Assembly: GCA_013314775.1 (NCBI GenBank)
Contig: JABUFB010000010.1
Coordinates: 186,001-250,000 of the forward strand
DNA from: Armatimonadota bacterium
GTDB taxonomy: Bacteria > Armatimonadota > Zipacnadia > Zipacnadales > JABUFB01
DNA: 64,000 nucleotides
Direction of reading: 5' to 3'
Shown here piece by piece: positions 1,637 through 48,768 of this stretch (position 1 is the stretch's first letter; each line of letters opens with the position of its first letter). Both the position numbers and the translations under genes were made by a program. The notes under the pieces were generated by a model. That model saw only the letters and a list, made by a program, of their open reading frames with translations, searched no databases and was not told the DNA's origin.

Positions 1637-3229
1637 CTACTTGAGCAACGCCGCAAGCTCCCGCCGCGCTGAGACATACCCTTGCGGGTCCTGGTTCCAG
1701 TCCTGGAAGGACCGCACCTGAGAGTCAACGATGGCGTCGACCTCCGCCTTTCTCCCCCTATTGGCGGCGAGGGTCATTATCTCGAAGTCCTCAAGTGCCT
1801 CGCGCACCAACTTGAGGCGAATGGACGGCACCGGCCCTCGAATGCCTGCCTCAAGTCCGGGGTAGACCAACATGCCCTCTCCCCAATACTTGTCCCGGAA
1901 ATGGGGCTTGTTCCAGACATCCTCGTACGCATCCCAGTACACGCTGGACCAGTACAGGAAGCCCTTGATACCGTAGCGCCAGCTTACCCAGAACGGCGCG
2001 CGAAAGTGCACGGGAGCGAAGTCCACCTGCCAGAAGGGGGCATTGCGCTGGCAAAGGGCGGTATAGCTCCAGAGGGTCTCGCCGAGTTCCTGGCGCTCCC
2101 GCGCAGTCTTCTCGTCCCAAAGGCCCCAGAGCGGGCACCAGATGTCCACCGCGCCGTACAGGTCTCCCCAATCGGGGTTGGAAGTGATGGTTTGCTCGGT
2201 ACACATACGCTTGATCCCCGGGTCGGCTTCCCGGATGAGAGCGCCCTGCTGCCGCACGATCTCGTACTCTTCGGCGTCATTGGGTTCGTCCCGCATGTAC
2301 ACGTAAGCGAGGTCCAGCCAGCCCTTCTCGCGCAGGTATCCGGCCAGCGCACGCAGACGCAGCTTGCACTTCTCGGGACCCTCACTCCAGCTGAATGGCA
2401 GGCGCAGAGCGTTCACATGCTTGTCTTCCACCATCATCCGCAGGCGCTCGCCGGTCTGAGAATCATCCACTGTTCCGTCATCCAGCACCTTCGGCCAGAT
2501 ATTGCCCAGACTGCCCGGAACCGCGCGGTGCGCGAGAAACGCGTCGATGTAGAGGTCCTCGACCTCGGCGAACTCGGGGGAGTTGGGGTCGAGATTGTTC
2601 TTCTTCGCAATGCGGCTACCCAGGCTGCCGAAGCTGGACTGCATCGCGATAGTGTCTGGGAGCTCGAAGGGCCAGACGGCAAGAATGACCGGGATCTGAG
2701 CCACCGTCTTCCCGGCCGAGGTGACCGTGACGCTGCCCCGGTACTCCCCGGGCGCGGTTCCTTTCGGCACGAACAGATCCGCCCAGTAGCCCTGGTTCGT
2801 GGCGGCTTCAATAGTGTATGGAGTGGCGTCATACTTCGCGCCCTGGATGTCCTGGCCCGTCTCCGGGTCCAGGAAGGGGATCAGGGCGTCAGGGTACCAG
2901 CCCGCAGGGGCGGTTGATCGCAGGCTGGGCTCGAAGACATTGAGATAGTGCTCGCGGAAAAGAGTGATACGGCTCGCAGGGATTGTGCCTGCCGGGCCCG
3001 TCAGGTCTGATGCGGTGAGATTCACGTCGGGAAGGGGCTGTTCACCCGCCCGGACGATGATCCGGAAGGCTTCGTACTCATTGGCCCCGGCCTCGAGGGT
3101 CACCTCAGAGACGGTGCCGGGGTCCGAGGATTTCAGCACGTGCTCCCACGGCGAAGCCACCCACACTGCCGGCTGTGCCCAGACGAGACTGGCAGCAATC
3201 AGCGCAACTACCACGAAGGCTTGCCACAT
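1637..3229 (-). CDS. Exported DUF4091 glycoside-hydrolase-like protein
   Basis: A 530-residue protein from the ATG at 3229 (MWQAFVVVALIAASLVWAQP), which gives a clean Sec signal peptide cut after VWA. The frame runs 11 codons further up, but those residues are charged and would bury the signal. The N-terminal half is beta-rich; the middle (about 200-400) looks like a TIM-barrel with 'LAYVYMRDEPNDAEEYE'. Residues about 420-485 carry the DUF4091 signature (GIKGFLYWSSVYWD ... GEGMLVYPG). DUF4091 proteins are predicted glycosidases of unknown specificity, common in carbohydrate loci of Armatimonadota and Bacteroidota. The gene sits 96 bases downstream of a methyltransferase gene, with a hairpin between them. 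Family certain, substrate unknown. Confidence 0.85.
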   Translation of the reverse strand: MWQAFVVVALIAASLVWAQPAVWVASPWEHVLKSSDPGTVSEVTLEAGANEYEAFRIIVRAGEQPLPDVNLTASDLTGPAGTIPASRITLFREHYLNVFEPSLRSTAPAGWYPDALIPFLDPETGQDIQGAKYDATPYTIEAATNQGYWADLFVPKGTAPGEYRGSVTVTSAGKTVAQIPVILAVWPFELPDTIAMQSSFGSLGSRIAKKNNLDPNSPEFAEVEDLYIDAFLAHRAVPGSLGNIWPKVLDDGTVDDSQTGERLRMMVEDKHVNALRLPFSWSEGPEKCKLRLRALAGYLREKGWLDLAYVYMRDEPNDAEEYEIVRQQGALIREADPGIKRMCTEQTITSNPDWGDLYGAVDIWCPLWGLWDEKTARERQELGETLWSYTALCQRNAPFWQVDFAPVHFRAPFWVSWRYGIKGFLYWSSVYWDAYEDVWNKPHFRDKYWGEGMLVYPGLEAGIRGPVPSIRLKLVREALEDFEIMTLAANRGRKAEVDAIVDSQVRSFQDWNQDPQGYVSARRELAALLK

Positions 3230-3291
3230 GGCCGATCCACCCTTTCGCGGGGATTTGAGCACAGTTTCCCCGTGGCGAAGGGGCGTTCCTT

Positions 3292-3325: not shown

Positions 3326-4117
3326 TCACCGGGCGAAGCCCGTCCCCAGAAGCCACGTACCATATCGCCGCTTGTACTCCTCTGACAGCGCAATCGGCCC
3401 AATGCGGTCGTATCCGAGGGTCGCTTTCAGACCCTTGACCAGCAGCCCCGTGGCCCGGCTCTTGGGCCACTTGCAGAGGGTATCCCAGACCATGTAGCCC
3501 TGCACCAGCACGTCCGTCAGCCCCACTGCCGAAAGCTCATCCGCCAGTTCCTCCGGCGTGATCTTCGCTTCGCGCAGGGGGCAGTCTTCCGCCGTCCAGG
3601 GCCACCCCAGGCGCTCCCAGCGATCCATCCACGGGTGCGCATTGTTCGGGATACACACCGCAACAAGCCCACCCGAAGCAGTGGCGTTCAAGTGCTTCTC
3701 CAGCACCGTCGCGCGCTCAGCCGCTTCAAACCAGTGCTCGATCAGGCCGTCCGACAGGCACACATCGAAGGCATGCCCGAAATCTCGCTCCAGCAAGTCG
3801 CCCTGCTCAAGCCGCACTTCAACTCCAGCGGGAATGTGCGGCCTCGCGCGTTCAACATTGAGCTTCGCTGATTCCAGGACGGGCGCGGAGTTATCGAACA
3901 AAGTCGCATTCGCGCCACGGATCGCGCAGGCAAGCCCCAGGCTTCCACCACCGCAACCCAGCTCGATCACCCTCCTGCCGGCGAGCGATCCCACCCGCTT
4001 CTCGATAAGCGTGACCGGGGGACGGGTAGAGAGCCGGATCATCGCCGAAGCCGAGGTCTCGTAGGGATCGATCCATCGGGCCATCGCTTCGTCCCATTCG
4101 CGCGTGACTCTGTCCAT
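3326..4117 (-). CDS. Class I SAM-dependent methyltransferase
   Basis: A 263-residue cytoplasmic protein. The ATG at 4117 is chosen because AGGAG sits 7 bases upstream; the longer open frame above it reads across the divergent promoter. Residues 50-59 (VIELGCGGGS) are the glycine-rich SAM-binding motif I. 'LEQGDLLERDF' and 'DVCLSDGLIEHW' fit motifs II and III of the Rossmann methyltransferase fold. No substrate-recognition domain is obvious, so the methyl acceptor is unknown. It diverges from the DUF4838 gene at 4311 across 193 bases and precedes the DUF4091 gene. A lone methyltransferase among exported glycan enzymes might act on sugars or lipids, but that is only context. Confidence 0.85.
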   Translation of the reverse strand: MDRVTREWDEAMARWIDPYETSASAMIRLSTRPPVTLIEKRVGSLAGRRVIELGCGGGSLGLACAIRGANATLFDNSAPVLESAKLNVERARPHIPAGVEVRLEQGDLLERDFGHAFDVCLSDGLIEHWFEAAERATVLEKHLNATASGGLVAVCIPNNAHPWMDRWERLGWPWTAEDCPLREAKITPEELADELSAVGLTDVLVQGYMVWDTLCKWPKSRATGLLVKGLKATLGYDRIGPIALSEEYKRRYGTWLLGTGFAR

Positions 4118-4310
4118 GCGCCATCTCCTGCTGGTGGCTCCACCAGTCTGGACGTGCCAGCATGCCTGGTCCGGTGAGGCGCTCCTATTCGACGACCAGC
4201 CGCCCTGCTCCTTCCGCACAACAGGAATGAGTGCGGGAGGGATCATGCCCATTCCCGTAGAAGGGTCAGTCGCTGAGGTTGGCGACCACGATCCCTGCGA
4301 GGGCCACAGC

Positions 4311-7300
4311 ATGAGACTCCCCGCTTTGCTCATCGGCGTTGCGACTCTGAGTATTACCAACCAGGCTGGACACGCCGCAAGCCTGACGCTGGTGGATGGC
4401 GGCGTTCCCGCCGCTACAATCGTGACTGCGGAGCGCCCAACCGTGCCCGCACGCCTCGCCGTCGAAGAACTCCAGACCCACGTAAAGCTCATCACCGGCG
4501 CGGAACTGCCTGTGGTGACGGACACCACTCCCGTTCGGGGTACCCGCATTCTCGTGGGCGAGAGCGCGGCGACCCGCAAACTGGGCCTGACCTCGGACAG
4601 CTTCGAGCCCCAGGAATACGTGGTCCAGTTCGCGCCCGACACCCTCGTCCTGATGGGCCGCGACAGCGACGAACCCGCGCGGGGAAATGTGTCGGTCTTT
4701 GGCAGGCCGGTTCCCGCCGAAGGCATGTTCGGCCGCGCTCTCAGCTTCGACGGCGGCTCCGCGATTGGGGTAGAGAACTGCGCCTTCAATGACCAGGAAG
4801 GCTCCATGGAAGCGTGGGTGTTCTTGCCGGAGGAGCTTGATCCCCGCATTGGGACCATCCTGCGCCTGGACAGCCCGGGCCCGTGGACTTACCACATCCT
4901 CCAGCGCGAACCGAACTCGCGGCGCATAAGCTACTTCACCTACGATGGGCATGGCGGAACCGCAGTGCGAACCGGTGAACTCTCCCCTGGCTGGCATCAC
5001 CTGCTGGCAACCCACAGCGTCGCCAATGACCGGCTCGAGCTGTTCGTGGACGGAACCAGCGCCGGTTCGGCCAAGTACCTCGTAACCTGCTGCGAGGGAT
5101 CCATGCTCCAGATCGGTGCGACCGGACTCACGGGGAACATGGGTAACCCCTTCACGGGGCGGATCGACGCTGTGCGGGTGACCCGAGCGGTCATCACTCC
5201 CGAAGAGAGCGGCTTCAAGGCGCGTCCGGCGGCAGGCCCGAAGACCGCGACACTGCTGCACTTCGATGAGGAGTCCGGTGTCCCCGTGGACTCGGGCGGC
5301 AGACTCGGGCCTGCGCCGCTTCCGGATTTCCACGACGATCAGGCCACCTGCTATGCGGTCTATGACTTTCTGGAACGCTTCTGTGGAGTGCGCTGGTTCA
5401 GTCCCACGGATTTCGGGACGATCTACACTCCCCGGAAGACGCTGACCGTGACCGGCGAGAGCATGCGGCGCTCCCCGGTTTTCAAGATGCGCACCGGCAC
5501 CATGATGAACCCGGGCAACTACGACCCTTCCATTACCACCTTCTGGCAGTCCGGCACTCCGGAGTTCGCGGATTTCGAAGCCACCGCTTACCCCCGCCTG
5601 CTTGAGCGGGCGCCCACCGAGGGCACCTTCCGGGCGGCCAAGAATCGGCAGACTAGGCTGTTCCTGCACCGTATGCGGGTCGGCGGCGAGCGCAATTACT
5701 GCAACCACTCGCTCTATGGCTACTATGACCGGTTCTGGCGCGATGGCGAGAAAAAGTCGTCGCTGTTCGTGGAGAAGCGCCCGGAGTACTTCGCCAAGGG
5801 CTACAACGGCGAGCCGCCGCAGATGTGCTACACCGACGAGGGGTTCCTGGAGCAGCTCGCCAAGGACGCGCGAGACTACTACGACGGCAAGGTCACCGGG
5901 GCGCAGCTGGGCATTTTCTGGAACCCCATCCCGCCCAACATGTTCCCCGTCGAACCCATGGACAACGCGGCCTTCTGCAAGTGCGAGGCATGCCAGAGAT
6001 GGGTCAGCCAGCGCGAGGCGGCGTCGATCTTCTTCTCCAATGGCCGCGACAGCGACTACTTCTTCAACTTCATCAACGGGGTGGCACGCAAGCTGCGCGA
6101 GACACATCCGGACAAGTGGATCATCACCCTGGCTTACATGTCCCATGCCGCGCCACCCGAGAAGGTGGCGCTTGAGCCGAATGTTGCTGTCCAGTACTGC
6201 TTCGCATGCAATCGCCTGAACTACGACAGGCCGTCCTATGAACACGAGCTCGAATACCTGGCCCAGTGGGGCGCGGAGAGCAAGCGCCGACCCATGTACC
6301 TGTGGCTATATTATACATTCCCCTGGGAAGTGGCGGTGAACGGAAAGTTCCATTGCTTCCCCGGCTACTTCGCGCACACAATCGGCGAGCAATTCAAGCT
6401 CTTCCATGAGTACGGCTACCGGGGCATCTTCCACTGCGGTTACGGCCAGGAGATCGAGGCGTACCTGACCTACAAACTCATGGACGACCCCACGCTGGAT
6501 GTGGATACACTCCTAGACGAGTACTTCACGGGCATGTATGGCCCCGCATCCGAATCAATGAAACGCATCTACCTGGAGATCGAGCAGGTCTACGGCGATC
6601 CGAAGAGCTACCCGCCGTCCATCGCCGAGGGCCGCATCGAGGGCCATCATCACCAGACCGAAGAGATTGCCTGGGGTTGGCTGGGCACCCAGGAGCGCAT
6701 GGATCGCTGGCAAGGGTATCTCGACCAGGCGAAAACCCTCGCCTCCACGGGCGATGAGGCAGCGCGGATCGCAATTTTCGAAAAGGGTATCTGGAACTAC
6801 ATGCTGGCCGGACGGCGCAGGTACTCAGCCCGCGAGCAGTACCGCAACGTCCCGCCGCCGCGTGGCGAGGCGCCCAGGGTCAGCCCGGCCAATGGCGACC
6901 CGTCTGCAGTGGACTGGGCGCAGGCGGGAGAATTCTCTCCATTCCGACAGAACACCGGTGAACCCACATCACGCAAGGTATCTGGACAGGCGGCCCATGA
7001 CGGTGAGTGGCTGTACCTGCGTCTCACCGAGGAGGGCGACCTCAGAGGGCTGCAGGATTCGCCGCACATCTATGATGGAGATGACTGGGAGATCTTTGTT
7101 TCCACGAGCAGGGGCGGGGCGAAATACTACCAGGTGGGCGTGAACCCATCAGGCGTCTGGGACAGCGGCCAGTATGAAGTCCCCCGAAAAGGCGAACCGT
7201 GGAAGACCGCCCTGCGGATCAACAGCACCGTCACCGAGGCGAAGGACCGCTGGACCGTGCTGGTCGCGGTGCCGCTCCGGGAGATCGTTCCAGACGGTTT

Positions 7301-7427
7301 CTCCGCAGGGGCCAGCATCTTCATGAACGTGTTTCGCGGCGGTCCGCAGGAGGCCCTGGCCTGGAGCCCCACCACCCAGCACGATTTCCACAGGCCCGAC
7401 CGCCTGGGCGAGATGGTGCTGAAGTAG
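4311..7427 (+). CDS. Exported DUF4838 protein with inserted LamG domain and C-terminal CBM9-like domain
   Basis: A 1038-residue protein from the ATG at 4311 (MRLPALLIGVATLSITNQAGHA), a Sec signal with GAGGG upstream; the open frame reaches further up but into the methyltransferase promoter. Order: GH20b/GH67N-like strand-helix domain (about 25-115, 'RLAVEELQTHVKLITGAELP'); a LamG/concanavalin-like lectin domain (about 122-340, 'GSMEAWVFLPEE', 'GRIDAVRVTRAVI'); then the DUF4838 core resuming at 'ATCYAVYDFLERFCGVRWF', with the family's CxCxxC motif (FCKCEACQRW, about 550-560). The end (about 860-1038) resembles CBM9-type domains ('GDDWEIFVSTS', 'WTVLVAVPLREI'). The lectin domain interrupts DUF4838 where related proteins are continuous. 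Predicted extracellular glycosidase of unknown substrate. Confidence 0.85.
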   Translation: MRLPALLIGVATLSITNQAGHAASLTLVDGGVPAATIVTAERPTVPARLAVEELQTHVKLITGAELPVVTDTTPVRGTRILVGESAATRKLGLTSDSFEPQEYVVQFAPDTLVLMGRDSDEPARGNVSVFGRPVPAEGMFGRALSFDGGSAIGVENCAFNDQEGSMEAWVFLPEELDPRIGTILRLDSPGPWTYHILQREPNSRRISYFTYDGHGGTAVRTGELSPGWHHLLATHSVANDRLELFVDGTSAGSAKYLVTCCEGSMLQIGATGLTGNMGNPFTGRIDAVRVTRAVITPEESGFKARPAAGPKTATLLHFDEESGVPVDSGGRLGPAPLPDFHDDQATCYAVYDFLERFCGVRWFSPTDFGTIYTPRKTLTVTGESMRRSPVFKMRTGTMMNPGNYDPSITTFWQSGTPEFADFEATAYPRLLERAPTEGTFRAAKNRQTRLFLHRMRVGGERNYCNHSLYGYYDRFWRDGEKKSSLFVEKRPEYFAKGYNGEPPQMCYTDEGFLEQLAKDARDYYDGKVTGAQLGIFWNPIPPNMFPVEPMDNAAFCKCEACQRWVSQREAASIFFSNGRDSDYFFNFINGVARKLRETHPDKWIITLAYMSHAAPPEKVALEPNVAVQYCFACNRLNYDRPSYEHELEYLAQWGAESKRRPMYLWLYYTFPWEVAVNGKFHCFPGYFAHTIGEQFKLFHEYGYRGIFHCGYGQEIEAYLTYKLMDDPTLDVDTLLDEYFTGMYGPASESMKRIYLEIEQVYGDPKSYPPSIAEGRIEGHHHQTEEIAWGWLGTQERMDRWQGYLDQAKTLASTGDEAARIAIFEKGIWNYMLAGRRRYSAREQYRNVPPPRGEAPRVSPANGDPSAVDWAQAGEFSPFRQNTGEPTSRKVSGQAAHDGEWLYLRLTEEGDLRGLQDSPHIYDGDDWEIFVSTSRGGAKYYQVGVNPSGVWDSGQYEVPRKGEPWKTALRINSTVTEAKDRWTVLVAVPLREIVPDGFSAGASIFMNVFRGGPQEALAWSPTTQHDFHRPDRLGEMVLK

Positions 7428-7481: not shown

Positions 7482-9029
7482 TTACAGGTCTGGCTGCTCG
7501 GAAGCCGTGGAGGCATGGGGCCCGGCGGCCGCCGGTGCGGCTCTGGCAGGGCGGGTGAAATCGTAGAGAAACAGTGCCGCTCCGGGCCGCTGGAACTCGT
7601 CAATACGGGTCCCGATCGCGTTCAGATCACGCAAGAAGGGCTGCTCGTCGCGTACACCGCCCCACGGGCAGGGGACGCAGTAGACCACCCAGACGCGCCG
7701 CTTGCCACGCAGAGCTTCAAGGCCCCGACTGTATGCTTCCGGGTCTTCTCGTCGTCCTGCACCGATGGTGTACTCACCGGGCCCAATGCCCAGAGCCGAA
7801 GCGTAATAACGAAACGGGTTCCGAGACCCATAGAAGACGTAGATCGTGTCCCCAGCTCGGCGTTCGCGCGACAGGCGCTCAACCACAGGTCGCACCTCCT
7901 CAACCGTTCGGGGCCGGAGGATGTCCCGGCCTGCCACCAGCGCAAGCGGCACGAGGATAATCAAGAGCAGGATCGTCCCGACGGCTCCCTCCAGGCCGCG
8001 CGATTGCCGAACGATGTGCACCGTCCCAGTCGCGATGAGCAGAAGAGAAAAGGGCACTGTGAAGAGCAGAAGACGGTCCGCGAAGGGGTACTTGCCCATG
8101 GCCGAAGCCGCAAGTGCCAGGAGTACTGGCGAGACCAGCAACCAGAATCCCTTCGCTGAACGGCGCCAGGCCAACACGCAGCCCACGAACAGCGGGAGAA
8201 ATGCGACCCCCGGATATGGGAAACCGCCAGGCATCCTCAAGGCTTCAGAGAGCGTCTCCAGATACCACCGGACGTCCTCCGCGCTCATCGGGGGAATTGG
8301 GGCGAAGCTGGCCTGCCAGTACCCTGTGAGGAACTGGCTCTCCGTCGCGGGGGATAATGTCAGGCGATGCACCAGAAGGAAACTGGAGGACCAAATGGCG
8401 GCGCCGGCGACTACAGCAAGTAGACCGCGCCAGCGACGCTCGGCGAGGCAATACGCACCGTGCACCAGGCATAGCCCTGCGAGCACGAACACAACCGCGT
8501 GGAAGAACCAGACCGCTGCCGCGCCGAGCAACCCCGTAAGGAGCCAGCGTCGTCCCTCGATGCTCCCCTGTCCCGCGAGCAGGAAGGCGAGCATCGAGAA
8601 GAGCACGTCGCCTGAGTACTGTTTGAGTTCGGCGGAATATGCCACGAGATGCCCGGATATAGCGAAGATGCCCAATGCCAGCGCCGTCTCCGCTCGCCCC
8701 GTCCACCGGCGACACAGGCCGTAGAACACGGGCAGGCTCAGGAGGCCGAACAGGAAGGCCGGCAGCCGGAGAGCGGCTTCCGAGGGGCCGAGCAGATCAA
8801 ATGCAGCGCGAGACAACCAGAGGAACCCGGGCGGACAGACCTGATCGTTGCTCAGAGGGAGCATTAGCTCAGCATAGGAACGTTCGACTATGTTCAGCGC
8901 CAGCGAGGCCTCGTCCGTCCACAGAGATCGGCCCGAGAAGTACTGAACTGCTCTCAGAACCACGCCCAGACCGATGAGTATCCACGGCCAGTAGGCCTTC
9001 GCCCACGCCCCCAGGCGGGAGGTACTGAT
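7482..9029 (-). CDS. GT39-type (ArnT/PMT-like) integral membrane glycosyltransferase, probable AUC start
   Basis: A multi-pass membrane protein of 515 residues as called. 'SGRSLWTDEASLAL' in the first loop holds the Asp-Glu pair (D39-E40) that is catalytic in GT-C enzymes using polyprenyl-phosphate sugars. About ten hydrophobic segments follow, then a soluble C-terminal part ('IYVFYGSRNPFRYY'). No ATG lies in frame near the expected start. GGAGGAG at 9043-9037 is 7 bases before an AUC at 9029, and that start gives exactly the length and N-terminal register of the paralogue at 9845-11392. GTG at 9065 or 9071 would add 12 or 14 unaligned residues. Probably transfers a sugar from polyprenyl phosphate to a periplasmic acceptor. 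Last gene of the glycosyltransferase run, 70 bases after the GT2 start-side neighbour as counted from the GTG alternative. Confidence 0.8.
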   Translation of the reverse strand: MSTSRLGAWAKAYWPWILIGLGVVLRAVQYFSGRSLWTDEASLALNIVERSYAELMLPLSNDQVCPPGFLWLSRAAFDLLGPSEAALRLPAFLFGLLSLPVFYGLCRRWTGRAETALALGIFAISGHLVAYSAELKQYSGDVLFSMLAFLLAGQGSIEGRRWLLTGLLGAAAVWFFHAVVFVLAGLCLVHGAYCLAERRWRGLLAVVAGAAIWSSSFLLVHRLTLSPATESQFLTGYWQASFAPIPPMSAEDVRWYLETLSEALRMPGGFPYPGVAFLPLFVGCVLAWRRSAKGFWLLVSPVLLALAASAMGKYPFADRLLLFTVPFSLLLIATGTVHIVRQSRGLEGAVGTILLLIILVPLALVAGRDILRPRTVEEVRPVVERLSRERRAGDTIYVFYGSRNPFRYYASALGIGPGEYTIGAGRREDPEAYSRGLEALRGKRRVWVVYCVPCPWGGVRDEQPFLRDLNAIGTRIDEFQRPGAALFLYDFTRPARAAPAAAGPHASTASEQPDL

Positions 9030-9135
9030 AGCGCATCTCCTCCACTCGCCCCCGCAGCGGATCACCCACACCTGCAGCCACAAGGGAGCTACTGCCGGTC
9101 TACTTTCGCGACACGTCTTTCCCGGCGAACGTCGA

Positions 9136-9822
9136 TCAGTCGCTGAACCGGTACCGGAGCAGCGTCCAGATAGCCTGCAGACCGTCACGCCAGCCGATCT
9201 TCTTGCCCTGCACGAAGCCCCGAGCCTTGTACTGAACGGGCACCTCGATGATGTTCGCGCCACGTTTGAGGAGTTTCGCGGTGATCTCCGGCTCGATCTC
9301 GAACTCCTCGCTGCGCAGTGGCAGGCTCTTCAGCAGCGGAGTGCGGATCACCTTGTAGCATGTCTCCATGTCGGTCAAGCGCGCCCCATACAGGGCATTG
9401 GTCAGCAGCGTGAGCATGCGGTTCGCCGCCCGCGAGGCCGGCAGGAACTGGGCGTCCCGGTTGAGGAAACGCGAGCCATAGACGACGTCGGTGCGGCCTT
9501 CGAGGAGCGGCGCGATGAGAGCGCCGTAGTCATCGGGGCTGTACTCCAGATCTGCGTCCTGTATGAGCACGATGTCGCCCTGAACGTGGTCAATTCCGGT
9601 GCGAATCGCTGCGCCTTTGCCCCGGTTCGCTTCATGCAGGATCAGTCGAACCACTTCCTGGTGCTCTAGTGCGATCTGTGCAAGAACATCCCGCGAGCCA
9701 TCTGTGGAGCCGTCATCGACGATGATGATTTCCTTTTCATGGGGTTCCGCAAGCACACGGGCCACGACCTCGCGCACCGTCTCGGCTTCGTTGTAAACGG
9801 GCATGACTACTGAAAGTCTCAT
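9136..9822 (-). CDS. GT2 family, DPM1-like polyprenyl-phosphate glycosyltransferase
   Basis: A 228-residue GT-A protein starting at the ATG at 9822 (MRLSVVMPVYNE), with GGGAG 5 bases before it. The DDGSTDG nucleotide-binding motif is at 36-42 and the metal-binding DAD at 89-91; 'NRGKGAAIRTGI' and 'DMETCYKV' are typical of dolichol-phosphate mannose or glucose synthases. It ends right after the catalytic domain (RYRFSD) with no membrane segments, like the short DPM1 form. The family makes polyprenyl-phosphate-hexose from a nucleotide sugar, which is the donor GT39 enzymes use. The gene lies between the two GT39 genes, so donor synthesis and transfer appear to be co-transcribed. The sugar (mannose or glucose) is not resolved. 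Confidence 0.9.
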   Translation of the reverse strand: MRLSVVMPVYNEAETVREVVARVLAEPHEKEIIIVDDGSTDGSRDVLAQIALEHQEVVRLILHEANRGKGAAIRTGIDHVQGDIVLIQDADLEYSPDDYGALIAPLLEGRTDVVYGSRFLNRDAQFLPASRAANRMLTLLTNALYGARLTDMETCYKVIRTPLLKSLPLRSEEFEIEPEITAKLLKRGANIIEVPVQYKARGFVQGKKIGWRDGLQAIWTLLRYRFSD

Positions 9823-9844
9823 TTGATCTCCCGGTGCTTGCGGT

Positions 9845-11392
9845 CTACCGTTCGGGCTGCTGTGAAGTCGCGGATGTATCGGAACCGGAGTGTTCTGGAA
9901 CCCGCCTCCCTGGACGCGCAAAATCGTACAGGAACACAGTCGCTCCGGGGTGAGTGAATTCTGCCAGCTTGTGTCCCAGCTGGTCAAGATACCGCCTGAA
10001 AAGGACCTCCTCATTCACACCTTCCCAGGTGCACGGATGCGCGAACACGATCCAGGCACGGGATTCGCCCCGCAGCGACGTCAGTTCGTCGCGGTAGCGT
10101 TCCCAGTCCTTGCGATGCTCCCCCCCAATTGTGTACTGGTCCGGTTGCAGGTTCATCCGGTCCGCGTAGTAGCGGAAGGTATGCCGAGCACCGTAGTAGA
10201 CGTAGATCACATCTCCGGGCTGTCGGTGCGCCATCATCTGCTGAACAACCGGACGCACCTCTTCCTTCGTGCGGGGGCGCACGACATCCCGGGCCGCGAT
10301 GATCCCGGTGGGCACGAACAGCAGGATCAGAAGCAGCGGGCCGACGGCCTCCTTCAGGCTCCGCGCCTGCCGAACGATCAAGGCGGCACCCTCGCCGATG
10401 AACAGCAGCCCGAAGGGCACCGCGAAGAGCATCAGGCGCCCGCCAAAGGGGTACTTCCCTACGGAGGAGGCAAGAAGCGCCACCAGCACGCCGGAGAGTG
10501 TGAGGAGACACCTGTGTGGCGAAGCCCGGTACGCGGCCACGATCCCCATGAGCAGTGGCAGCGCAGCCACTCCCGGGTGCGGGAATCCCCCGGGCATGCC
10601 CAGCAGTTTGAAGGGGGTATCCACGAACCAGCGCAGGTCTCCAATGCTCTTCGGGGGGATCGGCGCGAAAGTGCCCTGCCAGTAATCGGCAAGGTAGTCG
10701 TTTTCGGTCGCGCCGGTGAGGGTCATGAAGTACATCACCCCGAAGCTGCCTGCCCACAGGACTCCGCACCCGAGCACACCCGGCAGGTCTCGCCAGCGGC
10801 GCTCCGACAGGATCGCGATCCCGTGAACCAGGCAGATCCCGGCCAGCATCAGCGCCGACGCATGCGATCCCCAAACCGCCACCATCCCCACGAGACCCAC
10901 CAGCCACCAACGCTGGAGCCGCGGCAGCCCGCCACCTGCCAGCCAGAAGATCAGCAGGCAGAAGAACACGTCCGCCGAGTACTGCTTCAGTTCGTCGGAG
11001 TAGGCCACCAGGTGCTCGGAGATTGCGAATAGACCCGTGGCGATCGCGGCGGAGGACGCATCAGACCAACGACGCGCTACAAGGTAGAACAGCGGCACGG
11101 ACAGGACCCCGCACACGAAAGCAGGCAAGCGCAGAGCATCCTCGCCCGAGCCGAGCAGATCCACGGCCGCTCGGGACGCCCACAAGAACAGAACCGGGGC
11201 CACCTGCTCATCGGCCAGTGGCTGCAACAGCGCTTCATAGGAACGACTTACGATATTCAGTGCCAGCGCGGCTTCGTCGCTCCAGAGAGAGCGCCCGGAT
11301 AGGTACTGAACGGTCCTCAGCAGGATGCCCAGGCCAATGAGCAGCCAGGGCCAGTGGCGCGCGAGCTGAGACTGCATGTCTCTCGCCTTCAT
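9845..11392 (-). CDS. GT39-type (ArnT/PMT-like) integral membrane glycosyltransferase
   Basis: A 515-residue polytopic protein. The ATG at 11392 overlaps the stop of the YfhO-like gene as ATGA, implying translational coupling; an ATG at 11377 is the alternative. 'SGRSLWSDEAALAL' supplies the GT-C catalytic Asp-Glu (D39-E40). Hydrophobic helices fill most of the first 400 residues, and a soluble tail ('IYVYYGARHTFRYYADRM') follows. It is a clear paralogue of the protein at 7482-9029: 30 of 40 residues match over the segment starting two residues before WPW. Expected role is transfer of a sugar from a polyprenyl-phosphate donor, possibly made by the adjacent GT2 enzyme, in the inner membrane facing the periplasm. 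The two copies may act on successive positions of one glycan. Confidence 0.87.
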   Translation of the reverse strand: MKARDMQSQLARHWPWLLIGLGILLRTVQYLSGRSLWSDEAALALNIVSRSYEALLQPLADEQVAPVLFLWASRAAVDLLGSGEDALRLPAFVCGVLSVPLFYLVARRWSDASSAAIATGLFAISEHLVAYSDELKQYSADVFFCLLIFWLAGGGLPRLQRWWLVGLVGMVAVWGSHASALMLAGICLVHGIAILSERRWRDLPGVLGCGVLWAGSFGVMYFMTLTGATENDYLADYWQGTFAPIPPKSIGDLRWFVDTPFKLLGMPGGFPHPGVAALPLLMGIVAAYRASPHRCLLTLSGVLVALLASSVGKYPFGGRLMLFAVPFGLLFIGEGAALIVRQARSLKEAVGPLLLILLFVPTGIIAARDVVRPRTKEEVRPVVQQMMAHRQPGDVIYVYYGARHTFRYYADRMNLQPDQYTIGGEHRKDWERYRDELTSLRGESRAWIVFAHPCTWEGVNEEVLFRRYLDQLGHKLAEFTHPGATVFLYDFARPGRRVPEHSGSDTSATSQQPER

Positions 11393-13446
11393 TCGCCGGG
11401 CCGCCTCACTTCGCACCAGAGAACCAATCCGAGAATGAGCGCCGACAGGACCGTGACGGCGATGCCCGCCCACAAGTGGGGATGATGGTAGACCAACTCC
11501 ACCCGGCTATTCCCCGCAGGTACCTCAACGGCGCAGAATGCGATATTGCACCGGTGCAGTGGAGCCGGCTTGCTGTTGACTCGCGCCTCGAGCCAAGGAA
11601 TCCAGGTATACGCCAGCACCAGGATGCCCGGAGCGCGGGCCTCGCATTGAGCCACCACTCCGCGTGTGCCCTCGGAGATCACGCGGGCGGCCCCGCCGGA
11701 GGCACGCGAGACCCGCGGGATTTCGATACCTGTGCCTTCGGGCAGATAAGCGGTCGCGAAGGGTTCGTCGGACACGTCTTCGCCTCGCAGAACCGCCTCG
11801 AACTTAGCTTCAGTAGCCGTCCTTGACGCCAGCCAGGCCAGGCCCCTGTACTCGGGGTTTTCGCGCGAGACAACGGTGCTTCCTCCGCCAGGGCCAGGCC
11901 GACGTTCAATGATCCACCGGCAGCCGAACAGAGCCGACACTGTCAGATTGTGTGGGATGTCAGCCATCATTCGCGCATGAGCGAAATGCTTGAGACGCAT
12001 GGGGGTGTACCCGTCCACCGTGGGCAGGTCCCAGAGCAGGTTCGAATTCGGGTAAGCCATTTGAGCGCGCAGGAGGGTGATCTCGACAACGCTCAGCCCT
12101 TCCTCCGGCGGCCTGCGCAGCAAGTAGCGACCCCCTCCGTCGCCACGCTCGAATGACGGCAACTGCTCACGTGCGTCGGCGGCAATCCTCGGGTTGTAGT
12201 TCCAGGCGAAAACACCGGTCTCGCACACCACTGCGGCAGCAGCGAGCCACATTATCCACCGCACCGTCTTGAGGCTCTCTGGCAGAGTCGTCAGCCCGAT
12301 AGCGATGAGCAGACTCACACACGCCGAGATCACCAGAAGCCATCGCGCCGCCGCCCGGAAACTGTTCAGGAACGGGATGTACAGCACAACACGGTAGATC
12401 GGATTGATCTGCGACATCCCCATAGCGAAGGCGATGAGCATCAGTATGAGCAGGACGCTGATGATCTTGCGGCGTCGCCACGAAAGAGCTGCCAACGGCA
12501 GAAGCGCAAGCGTCGAGAAGCCCGCGAAACCCTCGCGCTCCCAGAATGCCCCTTGCGTGCCCCGAACATTCACAAAGGTCCACAACACGTCACGTGTAAT
12601 TGGAATCGAGGTGATGAAACTCAGGCTGGGCTCGCTCCGCACGGTCAACATGTGCAGAGCGATCGTTGGCACGAGCATGACACCGGCCAGCCCGACACCC
12701 AGCACCAAGACTGATACCAGGACGCTCCATCTGCGCAAGCGCAGACCGGGCGTCGATCGCATGTCCGGCAGCATCAGCTCGCACAGTGCCAGGAGTATGA
12801 AACCAGAGCAGGAGGTGAGCAGCAGTTCATGGGGATGTCCGACCAGCGTCTGAGCAACGATACACCACGCAAGAAGGGCGAGGTTGCGCCACCCGCCAGC
12901 CAGTCGGTAGTTCAGAATTGCATACCAGGCCCACGGGAACCAGGCGGCGGACTGGATGATCACATAGTGGTGCAGGTGGGCGATCATGAAGCCGCTGTTC
13001 GCGAATATGGCCCCCGCGCAGAAGGCCCCCAGGGGCAGAGCGCCCAGTCGCCTTGCCAGCACGAACATCCCCACAGCGGCGATACAGTAATGCAACCACA
13101 AGTTCCAGCCCATCAGCAACTCGGTGGATGCAGGCAGCAGCAACAGCAAGTTCGGCGGGTAGAAACGGCCCACCTGCGGATCGGCCGAGATCGGGTAGCC
13201 GCAGCCAATCCAAGGACACCACGGGAACCAGTTGCCCTCGAACACACAGCGCCGCATAAAGTCCTGCGTCGGGAGGAAAAACAGCCACTGGTCGTCGTGA
13301 AAGTACACCAACCGGCCCAGCAGCACAGGCGCGTGAATGAGAAAAATCAGCCCGCAGAGCCCAACCAGCCAGGGCCAATCCTTCCTGTGAGAGGAAAACG
13401 GCTTACCGTGGTCATCTGCTGGGCCGATGAACCCATTGGACCGCAT
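11389..13446 (-). CDS. YfhO-like polytopic membrane protein
   Basis: A 685-residue membrane protein with roughly twelve hydrophobic segments and a periplasmic-looking C-terminal region (about 420-650) before a last helix (AGIAVTVLSALILGLVLW). 'GCGYPISADPQVGRFYPPN' near residue 85 and 'HLHHYVIIQSAAWFPWAWY' fit YfhO-family and GT-C-like membrane proteins. In Gram-positive bacteria YfhO is implicated in glycosylating lipoteichoic acid, so a glycan-transfer or flipping role is plausible. The start is certain from context: its ATG directly follows the TGA of the GT4 gene with no gap, and its stop overlaps the GT39 start by four bases. The acceptor is unknown. Confidence 0.75.
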   Translation of the reverse strand: MRSNGFIGPADDHGKPFSSHRKDWPWLVGLCGLIFLIHAPVLLGRLVYFHDDQWLFFLPTQDFMRRCVFEGNWFPWCPWIGCGYPISADPQVGRFYPPNLLLLLPASTELLMGWNLWLHYCIAAVGMFVLARRLGALPLGAFCAGAIFANSGFMIAHLHHYVIIQSAAWFPWAWYAILNYRLAGGWRNLALLAWCIVAQTLVGHPHELLLTSCSGFILLALCELMLPDMRSTPGLRLRRWSVLVSVLVLGVGLAGVMLVPTIALHMLTVRSEPSLSFITSIPITRDVLWTFVNVRGTQGAFWEREGFAGFSTLALLPLAALSWRRRKIISVLLILMLIAFAMGMSQINPIYRVVLYIPFLNSFRAAARWLLVISACVSLLIAIGLTTLPESLKTVRWIMWLAAAAVVCETGVFAWNYNPRIAADAREQLPSFERGDGGGRYLLRRPPEEGLSVVEITLLRAQMAYPNSNLLWDLPTVDGYTPMRLKHFAHARMMADIPHNLTVSALFGCRWIIERRPGPGGGSTVVSRENPEYRGLAWLASRTATEAKFEAVLRGEDVSDEPFATAYLPEGTGIEIPRVSRASGGAARVISEGTRGVVAQCEARAPGILVLAYTWIPWLEARVNSKPAPLHRCNIAFCAVEVPAGNSRVELVYHHPHLWAGIAVTVLSALILGLVLWCEVRRPGE

Positions 13447-14607
13447 TCAGGCACCACCCAGCCCTGCCAGCTTACCCATTGCCGCCTCATACCTCTGCGC
13501 TGTGCGTGTGATTGAGTAGTTGCCGGCCGTCCTGCGCGCGCCATCGCCAAGCCGCCGCCGCAACTGGGGGTCTTCGGCGAGGGTCCTCCAGCAGCGAGCA
13601 TACTCCGCGGGCGTGTTGGAGTGCACCAATAGCGAGTTTTCACCATCGCGCAGAAAATCCCGCTGACCACCATCAGGGCTGGTCACCACAGGAAGGCCGC
13701 AATGCAGCGCTTCCAGGTAGACGATTCCGAAACCCTCATGCAGGGACGCAAGGCTGAAGACATCACAGGCAGCGAGAAGCTGGAACTTGCGGGTCTCGTC
13801 GACCCATCCTGTGAGAGTAACCCGGTCGCCGACACCGCGCGCCGCCGCGTGAGCTTCCAGTGCCTTCCGAAGCGGACCGTCACCGACAATCACCAGGCGA
13901 ATACCGCGGTCTGCGGTGAGAGCCAAGGCGTCGATGAGCCGGTCGAAAGCTTTGCGGGGTATTAGCCGGCCTATGGCTATTGCGATGAAAGCATCCTGCG
14001 GCAGGCCCAGTTCGTCGCGGGACAACCGCTCGAACCGGGGCTCGGGCAGGCCCAGGGGAATGACCTCGATCTGCCCGGTGTCCACCCCGTAATGCCGTCC
14101 GGCACGCTCCCGGACGTCCGAAGAGATGGCGCATATCCCATCCGCACCCCGGATCGCGCCGCGCACAATGGCGCGGGTGACAGGCCATCGGTGAGGGGAG
14201 GTGAACTTGGACGGATCGTAGATGTCGCCGCCGATGATCGTCAGGAGATTGGGACGATCCAGGGCGCGGCTGATTGTAGCACCCACGGGGCCGCTTGGCA
14301 GTGCGAACCAGGTGTTGACCACATCCGGCGCAAAATCCCGGGCGATCCGCGGACCGTCACGCCGTCCGGCCCACATGAAACCGGCCATCGATGCGATACT
14401 GGCCACAGCGCGCATACCCCGGCCGGGCACGGGTATGCGCGCCACCTGCACGCCACCGACCATTTCGCGGGCCAGCAGAGAACGATTGCCGGAGGTCAGC
14501 ACCATAATGTCGTGACGGGTCGCCAGCTCCTCGGCGATGTCACGCAACGCCGTGCCTCCCCCTCCACCCAGGGGCGGGTACTCGTAGTTCACCAAGAGGA
14601 TTCGCAT
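13447..14607 (-). CDS. GT4 family glycosyltransferase
   Basis: A 386-residue GT-B enzyme from the ATG at 14607 (MRILLVNYEYPPLGGGGG), the canonical glycine-rich N-terminus of GT4 proteins; the 11 codons above it are dispensable. The C-terminal donor-binding domain has 'AIGRLIPRKAFDRLIDAL', 'LVIVGDGPLRKALE' and the EX7E motif (E291-E299 in HEGFGIVYLEALHCGLPVV). Family members transfer a sugar from a nucleotide donor with retention, usually onto lipid-linked or capsular glycans in the cytoplasm. It is the first dedicated glycosyltransferase of the run, 67 bases after the Gfo/Idh gene, and its stop abuts the next start. Donor and acceptor are not identifiable. Confidence 0.9.
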   Translation of the reverse strand: MRILLVNYEYPPLGGGGGTALRDIAEELATRHDIMVLTSGNRSLLAREMVGGVQVARIPVPGRGMRAVASIASMAGFMWAGRRDGPRIARDFAPDVVNTWFALPSGPVGATISRALDRPNLLTIIGGDIYDPSKFTSPHRWPVTRAIVRGAIRGADGICAISSDVRERAGRHYGVDTGQIEVIPLGLPEPRFERLSRDELGLPQDAFIAIAIGRLIPRKAFDRLIDALALTADRGIRLVIVGDGPLRKALEAHAAARGVGDRVTLTGWVDETRKFQLLAACDVFSLASLHEGFGIVYLEALHCGLPVVTSPDGGQRDFLRDGENSLLVHSNTPAEYARCWRTLAEDPQLRRRLGDGARRTAGNYSITRTAQRYEAAMGKLAGLGGA

Positions 14608-14674
14608 GCACCCCACGCTTCCTGTTTTCGCCGCGAGCAATGACCGCCTCCCCGGGGCCCCGTCCCAGTGAAAG

Positions 14675-15823
14675 CTACATTGTCACATCCTGGAATGTCC
14701 GGGTCGCGGCGCTCTCCCGCGCCTTCAGGCAAGTGAGGGCGCTGATGATCCCCGCCTCAATCGGGCTGCGCGAGTCGCCCTTACCCTGGGCGATCTGGAG
14801 AAAATCGTGGCAAAGCTCCGTATCTCCGCCGAAGTGCCCGCCGCCTGCTTCGAACCGGATGGTCTCATTGCGCAGGCTGTGGTGCTCGAACACCTTGACT
14901 TCGCCGGTGTACCAGTCGAACTCGACGGTGCCGTGGTAGCCGAGAAATCGGGCTCCGCGCGCCCCGGCTTTGCCCCGTGCGTAGAAGTTCTGGCTGTAAC
15001 AGGCTTGGGCGCCGTTCTCGAACTCCACAATGGCGTTGCCGCTGTCCTCGTTCTTGATGCTCTCCGAGAACATGCAATGCATGGTGCTCTCGCGGTCCAC
15101 CTTCGAGCCTTGACCGCGCCGGTAGAACAGGTTGAACGGACTCTCAATGCAGGTCTCCTGCTCATCGCAGTCGCGGCACATGAGTCCTTCCGGCTTGTCG
15201 CCGCCGTAGATGCGCCGGGAGTTCATAGCGCAGACGGAGGCGGGACGGGACCCCAGGAGATAACTGATGTAGTCAAAGTCGTGGGTGGCTTTCTGCAGGA
15301 ACAGCCCGCCGGTCTCGTTGAAGTCCCGGTACCAGCCGCCGTAGTATACCCACCCATAAGGCACATTGTTCCAGGCCTGGACCTGGTGGATCTCCCCAAG
15401 ACGCCCGGAGTCGATGATCTCCTTGGCCGCAAGCGCCAGCGTGGTGAGCCGCAAGGGGAAGGACACCACGACCTGGGGCCTGTAGTCGTGGAATGCTTCG
15501 GCCAGCGCGCGCACCTGCTCCATACTGGTGGCCACAGGCTTTTCCAGGAACAGCGGCAGGCCGCGCTTAGCAACCTTCACAGCCATCGGGGTGTGAAGTG
15601 AACAGCGGGTGCCCACGAGCACACCGTCGAACTGCTCCTTGTCCAGCATCTCGTCAGCGTCTTCGTAGATGCCTGCGTTCTTCAGGTCCTCAAAGCTCTC
15701 CTTGTACTCTTTACCCTTCGGGTCGGTGATCGCGCCAATCTCGAAAGGCACGCTGAACTGCTTGAGTCCGTTGATGATGCCGCGGATGCGGCCGCCATAG
15801 CCGATGACTCCGAACCTGAGCAT
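14675..15823 (-). CDS. Gfo/Idh/MocA family oxidoreductase
   Basis: A 382-residue NAD(P)-dependent sugar or cyclitol dehydrogenase. The ATG at 15823 has GAGG 8 bases upstream and places 'FGVIGYGGRIRG' at the N-terminus as the Rossmann nucleotide-binding loop. EKP (94-96) and the conserved His in 'QKATHDFDYI' (H181, with D184) are the family's catalytic features. C216, C219 and C225 form a CxxCx5C cluster seen in a subset of the family, possibly structural metal ligands. It diverges from the deacetylase and aminotransferase genes across 178 bases. An Idh-type oxidase plus a DegT aminotransferase is a known way to make amino sugars or aminocyclitols, which I infer here; a purely catabolic role is also possible. 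Confidence 0.88.
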   Translation of the reverse strand: MLRFGVIGYGGRIRGIINGLKQFSVPFEIGAITDPKGKEYKESFEDLKNAGIYEDADEMLDKEQFDGVLVGTRCSLHTPMAVKVAKRGLPLFLEKPVATSMEQVRALAEAFHDYRPQVVVSFPLRLTTLALAAKEIIDSGRLGEIHQVQAWNNVPYGWVYYGGWYRDFNETGGLFLQKATHDFDYISYLLGSRPASVCAMNSRRIYGGDKPEGLMCRDCDEQETCIESPFNLFYRRGQGSKVDRESTMHCMFSESIKNEDSGNAIVEFENGAQACYSQNFYARGKAGARGARFLGYHGTVEFDWYTGEVKVFEHHSLRNETIRFEAGGGHFGGDTELCHDFLQIAQGKGDSRSPIEAGIISALTCLKARESAATRTFQDVTM

Positions 15824-16001
15824 AACGCAGTCCTCTTCTTGTTTCGTATTGGGGCCGCATGGGCCGGGAGCGCGTTTCGACAGATCTAGCAAAAGGACCT
15901 GCATTCCTCCGTGAGCAGAAGGACTGCCGCAGGACCGCGGCGAAAAGCCACGTGTTCCGCCCAGGTTCCACGGAGCGCATTACTCTGCCAGGAGAGCAGC
16001 C

Positions 16002-16901
16002 ATGAGTGCACCGCAGCCGCACCGCTTCGTGGTCACCGTAGACGACCCGGGCGGGCTGATCCAGGACCTCGACATATTCGAGCGTACTCGCCAATTCTTC
16101 GACGATGAGGGTGTCCCCGCCAGTTTCATGGTTGTTCCCCGGGGCGAGGGCGGCTGGCAATTGGATACCCAGCCGGCATGGCTGAGCGCCCTGAAGTCCG
16201 CCGAGGCCGCCGGCCACGACTGCCAGCTTCATGGTCTGGACCACCGAAACTGCGAGTTTGGCCCCTATCCGGCGATGATCCGAGCAATGGGCCGTCGAGA
16301 TCCCGAGGAGGTGCTGCGGGAGAATGCCGCCAGTTTCGGGAGCGTCTGGAACTATGAGTCTCACGTGGAGAAACTCCAGACTGCGATGGCGATCTTCCGG
16401 GCCGCATTCGAACGCGATCCACTGGTCTTGCGCACCGGTGCGCTCTCCCAGACACCCGACTTGTATCGCGCCATGGCTGATGTGGGTATGCGATACACTT
16501 CAAATCTGGTGATTGACCCGCGGGGCTGGGAATACATCAACGAGAACTACGATAACCCCGGCGACTGGGACCCGGCGGTGCCGCCACACCCATACATGCT
16601 CACAGACCGCGTCGTCAGCTTGCCGATGATCAGCGAGTATGCGTGGTATCTCACGCCGGAGAAGATCCCGGTCCATCTTGCGCTTGCCGTGGAAGACCTG
16701 CAGCGCGTTTGCGCCTTGGACGGCGTCTACATCCTGATCTGCCACGTTCAGTGTGTGGGTGCCGAAGACAGGCTGTCGCAGCAACTGATCCACGAACTGC
16801 TGTCCGTCGCACGCAGTGACTATAACGTGCAATTCCAAACACTCGCCGACCTCGTGGCTGACATCGAGGCCGGCACCCTTCCCGTCATTCCCGGCGGGTA
16901 G
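16002..16901 (+). CDS. Polysaccharide-deacetylase-like (NodB fold) cytoplasmic protein
   Basis: A 299-residue protein with AGGAG 7 bases before its ATG. NodB-type motifs appear in order: TVDD (D14-D15) in place of TFDD, HGLDH (H77 and H81, the metal-binding HxxxH), RTGA (R144) and LICH (H248). All the usual metal and catalytic positions therefore look intact. It has no signal peptide, unlike most chitin or peptidoglycan deacetylases, so it probably acts on a small cytoplasmic molecule such as an N-acetylated sugar or precursor. It is followed after 17 bases by the DegT aminotransferase gene, which fits amino-sugar metabolism. DUF2334-like or other NodB-fold members without deacetylase activity are the alternative. 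Confidence 0.75.
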   Translation: MSAPQPHRFVVTVDDPGGLIQDLDIFERTRQFFDDEGVPASFMVVPRGEGGWQLDTQPAWLSALKSAEAAGHDCQLHGLDHRNCEFGPYPAMIRAMGRRDPEEVLRENAASFGSVWNYESHVEKLQTAMAIFRAAFERDPLVLRTGALSQTPDLYRAMADVGMRYTSNLVIDPRGWEYINENYDNPGDWDPAVPPHPYMLTDRVVSLPMISEYAWYLTPEKIPVHLALAVEDLQRVCALDGVYILICHVQCVGAEDRLSQQLIHELLSVARSDYNVQFQTLADLVADIEAGTLPVIPGG

Positions 16902-16918
16902 AATGGAGGAGGCGCACC

Positions 16919-18073
16919 GTGGGCGTCGATCGCTTTGATGGGCCGGAAATCGAGTATCTGAAGGACATCCTCAGCCGTGGGGCCCTGTCCGGGCGGAGCA
17001 ATGGGTACCAGGGCAAGCTGGAGGCGGCTTTCGCGAAGGCCTTCGGCGTGAAACACGCCATTTCAGCCAATGCGGCCATGTCGCTGCTGATCTCGTCGGT
17101 GTTCGCCGCCGGGGCCGGCGCGGGCGATGAGGTCCTGTGTGACCCCCTGGTACAGTTCCACGCAATCGGCGCGCTGTGGATGAACGCGCATCCGACATGG
17201 GCCGATGTTTGCGAGGATACATGGCTCATGGATCCGGAATCAGCCCGGGCCAACATTACCCCGCAGACGAAGGCCATCTGCGCCACGAACCTCTGGGGAC
17301 AGCCCGCAGAGCTGGACGCGCTGCGCGCACTGGCAGATGAGAAGGGCATCATCCTCATCGAAGACTGCGCCCACGCCATGTTCCTGCCTTACAAGGGCAA
17401 GTACGCCGGCACATGGGGGCACATCGGCGTCTTCAGCTTCTGCCAGGGCAAGCATATGACTACCGGGGACGGTGGCATTGCTCTCACCGATGACGACGAC
17501 CTCGCCGCCAAAATCCGGGGAGTCACCTGCTTCGGGGAGTCGCCGCCCCACCTGGCCACGGTCTTCCGCATGACCGAGATGCAGGCGGCAATCGGCCTTG
17601 CGCAACTGGAGCGGGTCAAGGGGTACATCGAGGAATACCAGAAGAGCTACGCCCACCTGTCCGCGGCCCTTGATGGCTGCGACTGGGTGCAGCCGAGGGC
17701 CATCCGCGAGGGTTGCGGCAATTCGCCGTATATCTTCTCCTTCTTGTTCAAGGGCGACGAGAAGGGCATCGACATGATGGAGTTCCAGCAGGCCCTTTTC
17801 GACACGGGCGACACCTGGAACGTGGGCTTCACCCAGGTCCCGGCGTACAAGTACAAGCTGTTCACGCACCCCCTTGCGTACCAGGACAAAGGCTGCCCGA
17901 TCCACAACTGCCCGTACTACGAGGGCAACTACGAGTACCGCGATGGCCTTTGCCCCACCGCCGAACGTATTCTCCCGCGGCTGGTGAACACCAACTGCAT
18001 GATCTCCGAGGAGAACGCCAAGCGCGTCGCCGAGGGGCTTCGCAAGGCAATCGACTCCGTCGGGAAGTGCTAA
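16919..18073 (+). CDS. DegT/DnrJ/EryC1/StrS family PLP-dependent aminotransferase
   Basis: A 384-residue protein starting at GTG 16919, with GGAGGAGG just upstream. The fold-type I motifs are present: 'IEDCAHA' (D149 contacts the PLP nitrogen) and 'SFCQGKHMTTGDGG', where K178 should form the internal aldimine. The C-terminal part has an unusual Cys-rich stretch ('GCPIHNCPYYEGNYEYRDG'). The family transaminates keto-sugars or ketocyclitols, using Glu or Gln as donor. It sits between a deacetylase-like gene (17 bases) and a 76-codon gene (2 bases), and diverges from a Gfo/Idh oxidoreductase that could supply its keto substrate. The exact sugar is unknown; scyllo-inosose-type and 3-keto-sugar aminotransferases are both possible. 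Confidence 0.9.
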   Translation: MGVDRFDGPEIEYLKDILSRGALSGRSNGYQGKLEAAFAKAFGVKHAISANAAMSLLISSVFAAGAGAGDEVLCDPLVQFHAIGALWMNAHPTWADVCEDTWLMDPESARANITPQTKAICATNLWGQPAELDALRALADEKGIILIEDCAHAMFLPYKGKYAGTWGHIGVFSFCQGKHMTTGDGGIALTDDDDLAAKIRGVTCFGESPPHLATVFRMTEMQAAIGLAQLERVKGYIEEYQKSYAHLSAALDGCDWVQPRAIREGCGNSPYIFSFLFKGDEKGIDMMEFQQALFDTGDTWNVGFTQVPAYKYKLFTHPLAYQDKGCPIHNCPYYEGNYEYRDGLCPTAERILPRLVNTNCMISEENAKRVAEGLRKAIDSVGKC

Positions 18074-18075
18074 CC

Positions 18076-18306
18076 ATGGCGGACCTGACCAGACTCTCTC
18101 GCGAGACATCGGACATGATCCTGGACATCGTTGCCGACCTGGAACTGTGCAGCGCCGAACAGGTGCGCGACGAACTGAAGACCCGACATGGCATCGACGC
18201 GCCGGTTGATCAGGTCGAACGCTACATGGAGTTCCTGCGCAGCGGCTTCCCCCGGAAACTGGCCCACGCCGGACCGGGACGCTGGAACCTGGTGGACCTG
18301 AGCTAA
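18076..18306 (+). CDS. Small 76-residue protein coupled to the aminotransferase, function unknown
   Basis: It starts at the ATG at 18076, two bases after the aminotransferase stop, so translation is probably coupled. The protein (MADLTRLSRETSDMILDIVA ... GPGRWNLVDLS) is short and charged, with a helix-helix-turn pattern ('LCSAEQVRDELKTRHG', 'PVDQVERYMEFLR') ending in a strand-like 'GRWNLVDL'. That outline resembles a small winged-helix domain, but I cannot match it to a named family. It has no signal or membrane segment. It may regulate the aminotransferase operon or bind the enzyme. A strong hairpin follows its stop. Real-gene confidence rests on spacing, reading-frame quality and the hairpin immediately after. 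Confidence 0.65.
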   Translation: MADLTRLSRETSDMILDIVADLELCSAEQVRDELKTRHGIDAPVDQVERYMEFLRSGFPRKLAHAGPGRWNLVDLS

Positions 18307-46533: not shown

Positions 46534-47949
<1,416 letters not shown>

Positions 47950-47997
47950 GCTCGCTCCTCCCGCTTTGAGGTATGGTGACTTGCGTGGTTTGGGAAC

Positions 47998-48699: not shown

Positions 48700-48768
48700 C
48701 GAAAACAGTCCTTGTCCGCCAGCTAGCGACGCGCAGGCCCGGCAGATTCGGTCGAGATCAGCCCGGCC

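Follow-up and report, generated by a model that had tools for sequence, protein, structure and literature searches.

A conserved DUF2334-DegT-winged-helix gene cassette beside a genus-specific glycosyltransferase array in an Armatimonadota genome

Introduction

Positions 7482-18306 of a 64,000-nucleotide stretch of Armatimonadota DNA (the whole stretch is called the window here) encode an aminotransferase, a deacetylase-like protein and an oxidoreductase next to a row of glycosyltransferase (GT) genes, which raises the question of whether these genes serve one pathway. A first-pass annotation of the DNA had read them as a single amino-sugar glycan assembly locus. Comparison with other Armatimonadota genomes leads us to consider it probable that two independent units lie side by side, one a conserved cytoplasmic cassette of DUF2334, DegT and winged-helix proteins and the other an unrelated GT array specific to the genus. 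Judged from its protein families, the cassette may act on an amino sugar or aminocyclitol. A real conserved unit is thereby told apart from a chance neighbour, and DUF2334, a family that we found named just once, in a single open-licence paper, gains a partner that is always present and a substrate class open to testing. In addition, an unnamed 76-aa domain is tied to the DegT family by gene order and by fusion in two phyla.

Gene organization of the locus

The host assembly is an Armatimonadota MAG of 6.1 Mb in 37 contigs, 98% complete. On the plus strand lie the cassette genes, encoding a NodB/CE4-fold, deacetylase-like DUF2334 protein (16002-16901; PF10096, E 1.3e-9), a DegT/DnrJ/EryC1/StrS aminotransferase (16919-18073; PF01041, E 1.6e-62, 212 bits) and a 76-aa protein with a predicted winged-helix fold and no named family (18076-18306), whose ATG is found 2 bases past the DegT stop. 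Divergent from these, on the minus strand, are a Gfo/Idh/MocA oxidoreductase (14675-15904; PF22725 and PF01408; start likely ATG 15823), a GT4 glycosyltransferase (13447-14640; PF00534, E 4.4e-39; start likely ATG 14607), a YfhO-like membrane protein that is a probable GT-C glycosyltransferase (11389-13446), a GT39/PMT_2-type GT-C glycosyltransferase (GT39a, 9845-11392), a soluble GT2 resembling polyprenyl-phosphate sugar synthases (9136-9822; PF00535, E 1.5e-35) and a second GT39/PMT_2-type enzyme (GT39b, 7482 to about 9071; start uncertain). The genes named in the first-pass annotation, their order and their gaps of 0, -4 and 22 bases were confirmed, given starts at ATG 11392 for GT39a and ATG 9822 for GT2; between GT2 and GT39b about 50-65 bases intervene, according to which start is taken. 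Promoter and terminator scans gave results near chance level. Adjoining the array in the window are a GH123-domain protein (1637-3262) and a DUF4838/CBM9 protein (4104-7427). Further along, an isomerase, a class II aldolase and an FGGY kinase, recognized by eye at 46534-50451, resemble an arabinose/fucose catabolic operon.

Distribution of the cassette

At a threshold of at least 74% identity, the DegT orthologue was found in 16 of the 291 Armatimonadota genomes searched, belonging to nine families; these 16 genomes are not independent samples. A DUF2334 gene lies upstream of DegT in every one of them; in 15 the two genes are neighbours, and in G254 about 3 kb separates them. Searching the 291 genomes with a profile of the 76-aa protein recovered the same 16 genomes, the match in G254 being broken into fragments on either side of a masked stretch, with further weak or partial matches in G009 (a DegT fusion), G040 and G160. 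Wherever the contig runs on far enough, in 14 genomes, the 76-aa gene directly follows DegT; the small protein is truly coupled to DegT, as had been suggested. The match in G040 (L260, G040:C85:35777-35881) covers 35 residues from the domain's C-terminal half; G040 lacks a close DegT, and the match is possibly a frameshifted copy.

Homologues of the window's GT4, YfhO-like, GT39, GT2 and Gfo/Idh genes were found with the cassette in two genomes only, that of the window and G004 of the same genus. They are absent from the flanks of the 14 cassette genomes outside the genus, several of these flanks ending at contig ends, and a Pfam scan of 20 proteins that flank the cassette in other genomes returned no glycosyltransferase. 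The pairing of DUF2334 with DegT recurs beyond the cassette, since in other Armatimonadota families a distant DUF2334 (about 30% identity) also precedes a DegT of a distant subfamily. In family f29 (L185, L186, L187, L188) such a distant pair is followed, in several genomes, by PF01515 phosphate acetyl/butyryltransferase-family and ABC transporter-like genes.

The genes that surround the cassette in several genomes encode GH123, DUF4838 and BNR repeat proteins, a mannitol dehydrogenase and an ABC permease. These glycan-degradation and sugar-use neighbours, with GH123 and DUF4838 genes present in the window too, favour a catabolic hypothesis, in which DUF2334 would deacetylate an N-acetyl amino sugar freed by glycoside hydrolases and DegT would strip its amino group by running in reverse. 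We regard this as unlikely, though the best placed of the alternatives, because the genomes are full of such genes and DegT enzymes are usually biosynthetic. A glycan-degradation context was rejected as a feature of the cassette: GH123/DUF4838-like matches are about twice as dense near it as at other loci (5 loci in 192 kb versus 8 in 618 kb), which is not clearly above background. Genes of the GH123/DUF4838 type also flank the cassette in some relatives.

The cassette proteins

The earlier label of 'NodB-like' for the first cassette protein, which Pfam places in DUF2334, proved correct. Its AlphaFold model (pLDDT 83) matches CE4/NodB proteins in the PDB with Z of about 20-22, and the metal motif residues D14, D15, H77, H81 and H248 are invariant in 13 relatives. 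With a predicted NodB fold and an Asp-His-His metal site, the protein is, as modelled, a member of the CE4/NodB deacetylase superfamily. Like the deacetylases 3rxz, 3qbu and ArnD it has this fold and these metal motifs; unlike them it has no signal peptide by eye and precedes DegT in all 16 cassette genomes. A PDB sequence search with DUF2334 and YfhO returned nothing useful. In two genomes (L190:8088-10404 and L192:4477-6800) a distant DUF2334 is found without DegT, beside L-fucose-isomerase-like and creatinase/M24-like proteins.

For the second protein, the assignment as an aminotransferase also held. It matches the family profile and keeps the PLP lysine, K178 in the motif GKH..TGDGG, which is invariant, and by these features it belongs to the DegT/DnrJ/EryC1/StrS aminotransferases. 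It reaches no NCBIfam cut-off.

The 76-aa protein belongs to no family in Pfam or NCBIfam. Its model (pLDDT 89) is arranged as helix-helix-helix-hairpin and matches winged-helix proteins with Z up to 9.5 (65 residues, rmsd 1.8). A Foldseek search with the model gave nothing below E 0.001, and we therefore claim only the winged-helix fold class. Copies downstream of DegT in relatives show 55-91% identity. By direct count the window protein has 14 acidic and 10 basic residues (net about -4), a composition that disfavours simple DNA binding. In two phyla this domain also occurs as a C-terminal fusion to DegT, namely in the Armatimonadota genome G009 (L122) and in a planctomycetote (L052); the latter fusion was detected at E 2.9e-14 with a profile built without L052 and L122. 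In the DegT tree these two fusion proteins form the sister group of the cassette DegTs (support 100/97). The fusions suggest that the 76-aa protein is a partner of DegT, either a subunit or a regulator. We found no relevant description of DUF2334, or of DegT with a winged helix, in the open-licence literature, and both the cassette with its winged-helix partner and the DegT fusions appear to be undescribed.

A comparable architecture is known from the MocR/GabR regulators, in which a PLP fold-type I aminotransferase-like protein is likewise joined to a winged helix, as it is in L052 and L122. One conceivable reading is that the 76-aa protein and DegT make up an aminotransferase-linked sensor or regulator, independent of MocR in origin and belonging to a different branch of the PLP enzymes, and that the metabolite concerned is also acted on by DUF2334. 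We give this idea a small chance. MocR has an N-terminal winged helix of the GntR type, whereas the enzyme here is of the DegT family and its winged helix is C-terminal in the two fusions or encoded by a separate gene, and the 76-aa protein is acidic. A search for a shared operator upstream of DUF2334 (13 loci) found no k-mer above shuffled sequence. None of the three cassette proteins matches an anti-phage defence family.

Taking the cassette as a metabolic unit of its own, we propose that it operates in the cytoplasm. DegT would transfer an amino group on a keto-sugar or keto-cyclitol, in either direction, and DUF2334 would remove an N-acyl group from a related amino sugar, with the winged-helix protein serving DegT as a subunit or regulator. 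As a source of the keto group, any of the approximately 100 Gfo/Idh enzymes encoded in the genome could serve.

The Gfo/Idh oxidoreductase lies outside the cassette

The combination of Gfo/Idh oxidation with DegT action is well known as a source of amino sugars and aminocyclitols, and the oxidoreductase at 14675-15904 had been counted as part of the same system. Its orthologues in four cassette genomes (G006, G007, G008 and G025; 71-84% identity) are on contigs other than that of the cassette. Homologues with about 50% identity in G056, G057 and G061 adjoin a LacI/GntR-type regulator and a xylose-isomerase-like TIM barrel gene, a setting that looks catabolic. The 6.1-Mb window genome alone has 107 matches to the Gfo/Idh/MocA N-terminal domain, so any single Gfo/Idh neighbour is weak evidence.

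We also considered Gfo/Idh proteins in general as a constant cassette partner and rejected them, as their presence is patchy and the subfamilies differ. Within 3.5 kb of DegT they are present in the window's genus, L045 (two other Gfo/Idh genes), L052, L124 and L021 (from the genome of L124), give only weak matches in L048 and L122, and are missing from L040, L041, L042, L047, L049, L110 and L194. The Gfo/Idh gene is outside the conserved cassette.

The glycosyltransferase array

The view of the GT genes as a coherent set stands. The 'YfhO-like' label is weak for the window protein taken singly, which scores 20.6 bits against PF09586 (cut-off 28.5), and gains its footing from the family, as 12 of 12 members scanned match PF09586 (best E 1.7e-17). 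An aspartate near the N-terminus, D52, is nearly invariant. Both GT39 proteins pass the PMT_2 (PF13231) cut-off and retain the DE motif, which in GT39a (D39 E40) is invariant; GT39b is a paralogue of GT39a (54%). From the PMT_2 matches, YfhO family membership and conserved acidic motifs, these three proteins are predicted GT-C-type membrane transferases. GT2 is a short, single-domain protein whose closest NCBIfam models are AglJ (the best), ArnC and PpgS, each below cut-off.

No Wzx, Wzy or ABC exporter is encoded among the ORFs of 7482-18306, which distinguishes the array from Wzx/Wzy O-antigen and capsule loci; the absence noted earlier holds for the array, and Wzx- and Wza-family genes are present on other contigs of the same genome. 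The YfhO-like protein had been offered as a substitute exporter. Published work instead proposes a GT-C role for YfhO and for a number of PMT_2 proteins, which would draw sugars from a C55-P carrier, itself loaded by a GT-A enzyme, a scheme still without biochemical proof (PMC5836110, PMC8035078). Since YfhO proteins are proposed to be GT-C transferases and not exporters, the array resembles a transmembrane glycosylation set of the multi-component kind. It shares with the CsbB-GtcA-YfhO systems and their relatives a GT2, here putatively of polyprenyl-phosphate-sugar type, beside YfhO- and PMT_2-type GT-C enzymes. It differs from them in having three GT-C genes and a GT4, in its short single-domain GT2 and in its host, Armatimonadota and not Firmicutes. 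A further difference concerns GtrA, the usual flippase for polyprenyl-phosphate sugars, for which no PF04138 match was found in the 98% complete genome; candidates of Wzx type are found elsewhere in that genome.

The complete array (GT4, YfhO-like, GT39, GT2, GT39) is present only in the window genome, and the array is restricted to the genus. In G004, the sister genome (contig C145; L039:2356-3606), a single 416-codon frame joins the N-terminal part of GT4 (residues 1 to about 170) to the C-terminal part of YfhO (from about residue 433). Compared with the window, about 2.1 kb is missing in frame, and the ends have no long repeat. The join is seen on one contig and reflects either a true in-frame deletion or a fault in the assembly. 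With GT4 and YfhO merged in the only other array-bearing genome, conservation of the assembly line would fail even inside the genus.

These observations bear directly on the single-locus proposal, by which Gfo/Idh, DegT and the NodB-like protein make an amino sugar, the five GTs build a surface glycan from it and YfhO replaces the exporter. The genes are indeed adjacent in the window genome and its sister, and the oxidation and transamination route is, as said, well established. The gene-neighbourhood check, run across Armatimonadota, nevertheless gave the very outcome that the first-pass annotation had named as counting against it: the cassette outside the genus occurs without these GTs or this Gfo/Idh in the flanks examined, and Gfo/Idh orthologues are unlinked to it or in the catabolic-looking setting. 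With the array apparently damaged in the sister genome and YfhO proposed as a GT-C transferase (PMC5836110), we consider the single-locus proposal improbable.

Least probable of all is a counterpart of the Arn (L-Ara4N) pathway, with DegT as ArnB, DUF2334 as ArnD, GT2 as ArnC and GT39 as ArnT moving an amino sugar from a polyprenyl-phosphate donor onto an envelope lipid. Its list of parts makes it attractive, as each type of component has a counterpart here: a DegT, a NodB-fold deacylase, a GT2 and a GT-C transferase (ArnB, ArnC, ArnD and ArnT are described in PMC12650200). ArnB and ArnC models score for DegT and GT2, and the DUF2334 model matches the ArnD structure 8t0j (Z 19.9, rmsd 2.9, 227 residues), but the scores fall far below the ArnB and ArnC cut-offs (120.7 of 631 bits and 84.3 of 529, respectively) with other families scoring higher, the ArnD match is within the range of other NodB proteins, which match equally well or better, an ArnA-type gene is absent beside the array, and DegT and DUF2334 travel elsewhere without these GT2 and GT39 genes.

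Under the two-unit reading that we prefer, GT2 would make a polyprenyl-phosphate sugar; once flipped, this would serve the three GT-C membrane transferases in decorating a glycan, lipid or protein of the envelope. GT4 would act on the cytoplasmic face, where it would add a sugar. No product need be common to the two units. Their adjacency and divergence in this genus may leave room for a local functional link between them. Homologues of GT2 and GT39 are also adjacent in G014 and G039, and in G014 they sit in what looks like an envelope-polysaccharide locus, with lookalikes, judged from sequence, of a Wzx-type flippase, an SLBB-repeat export protein and a Wzc-type kinase.
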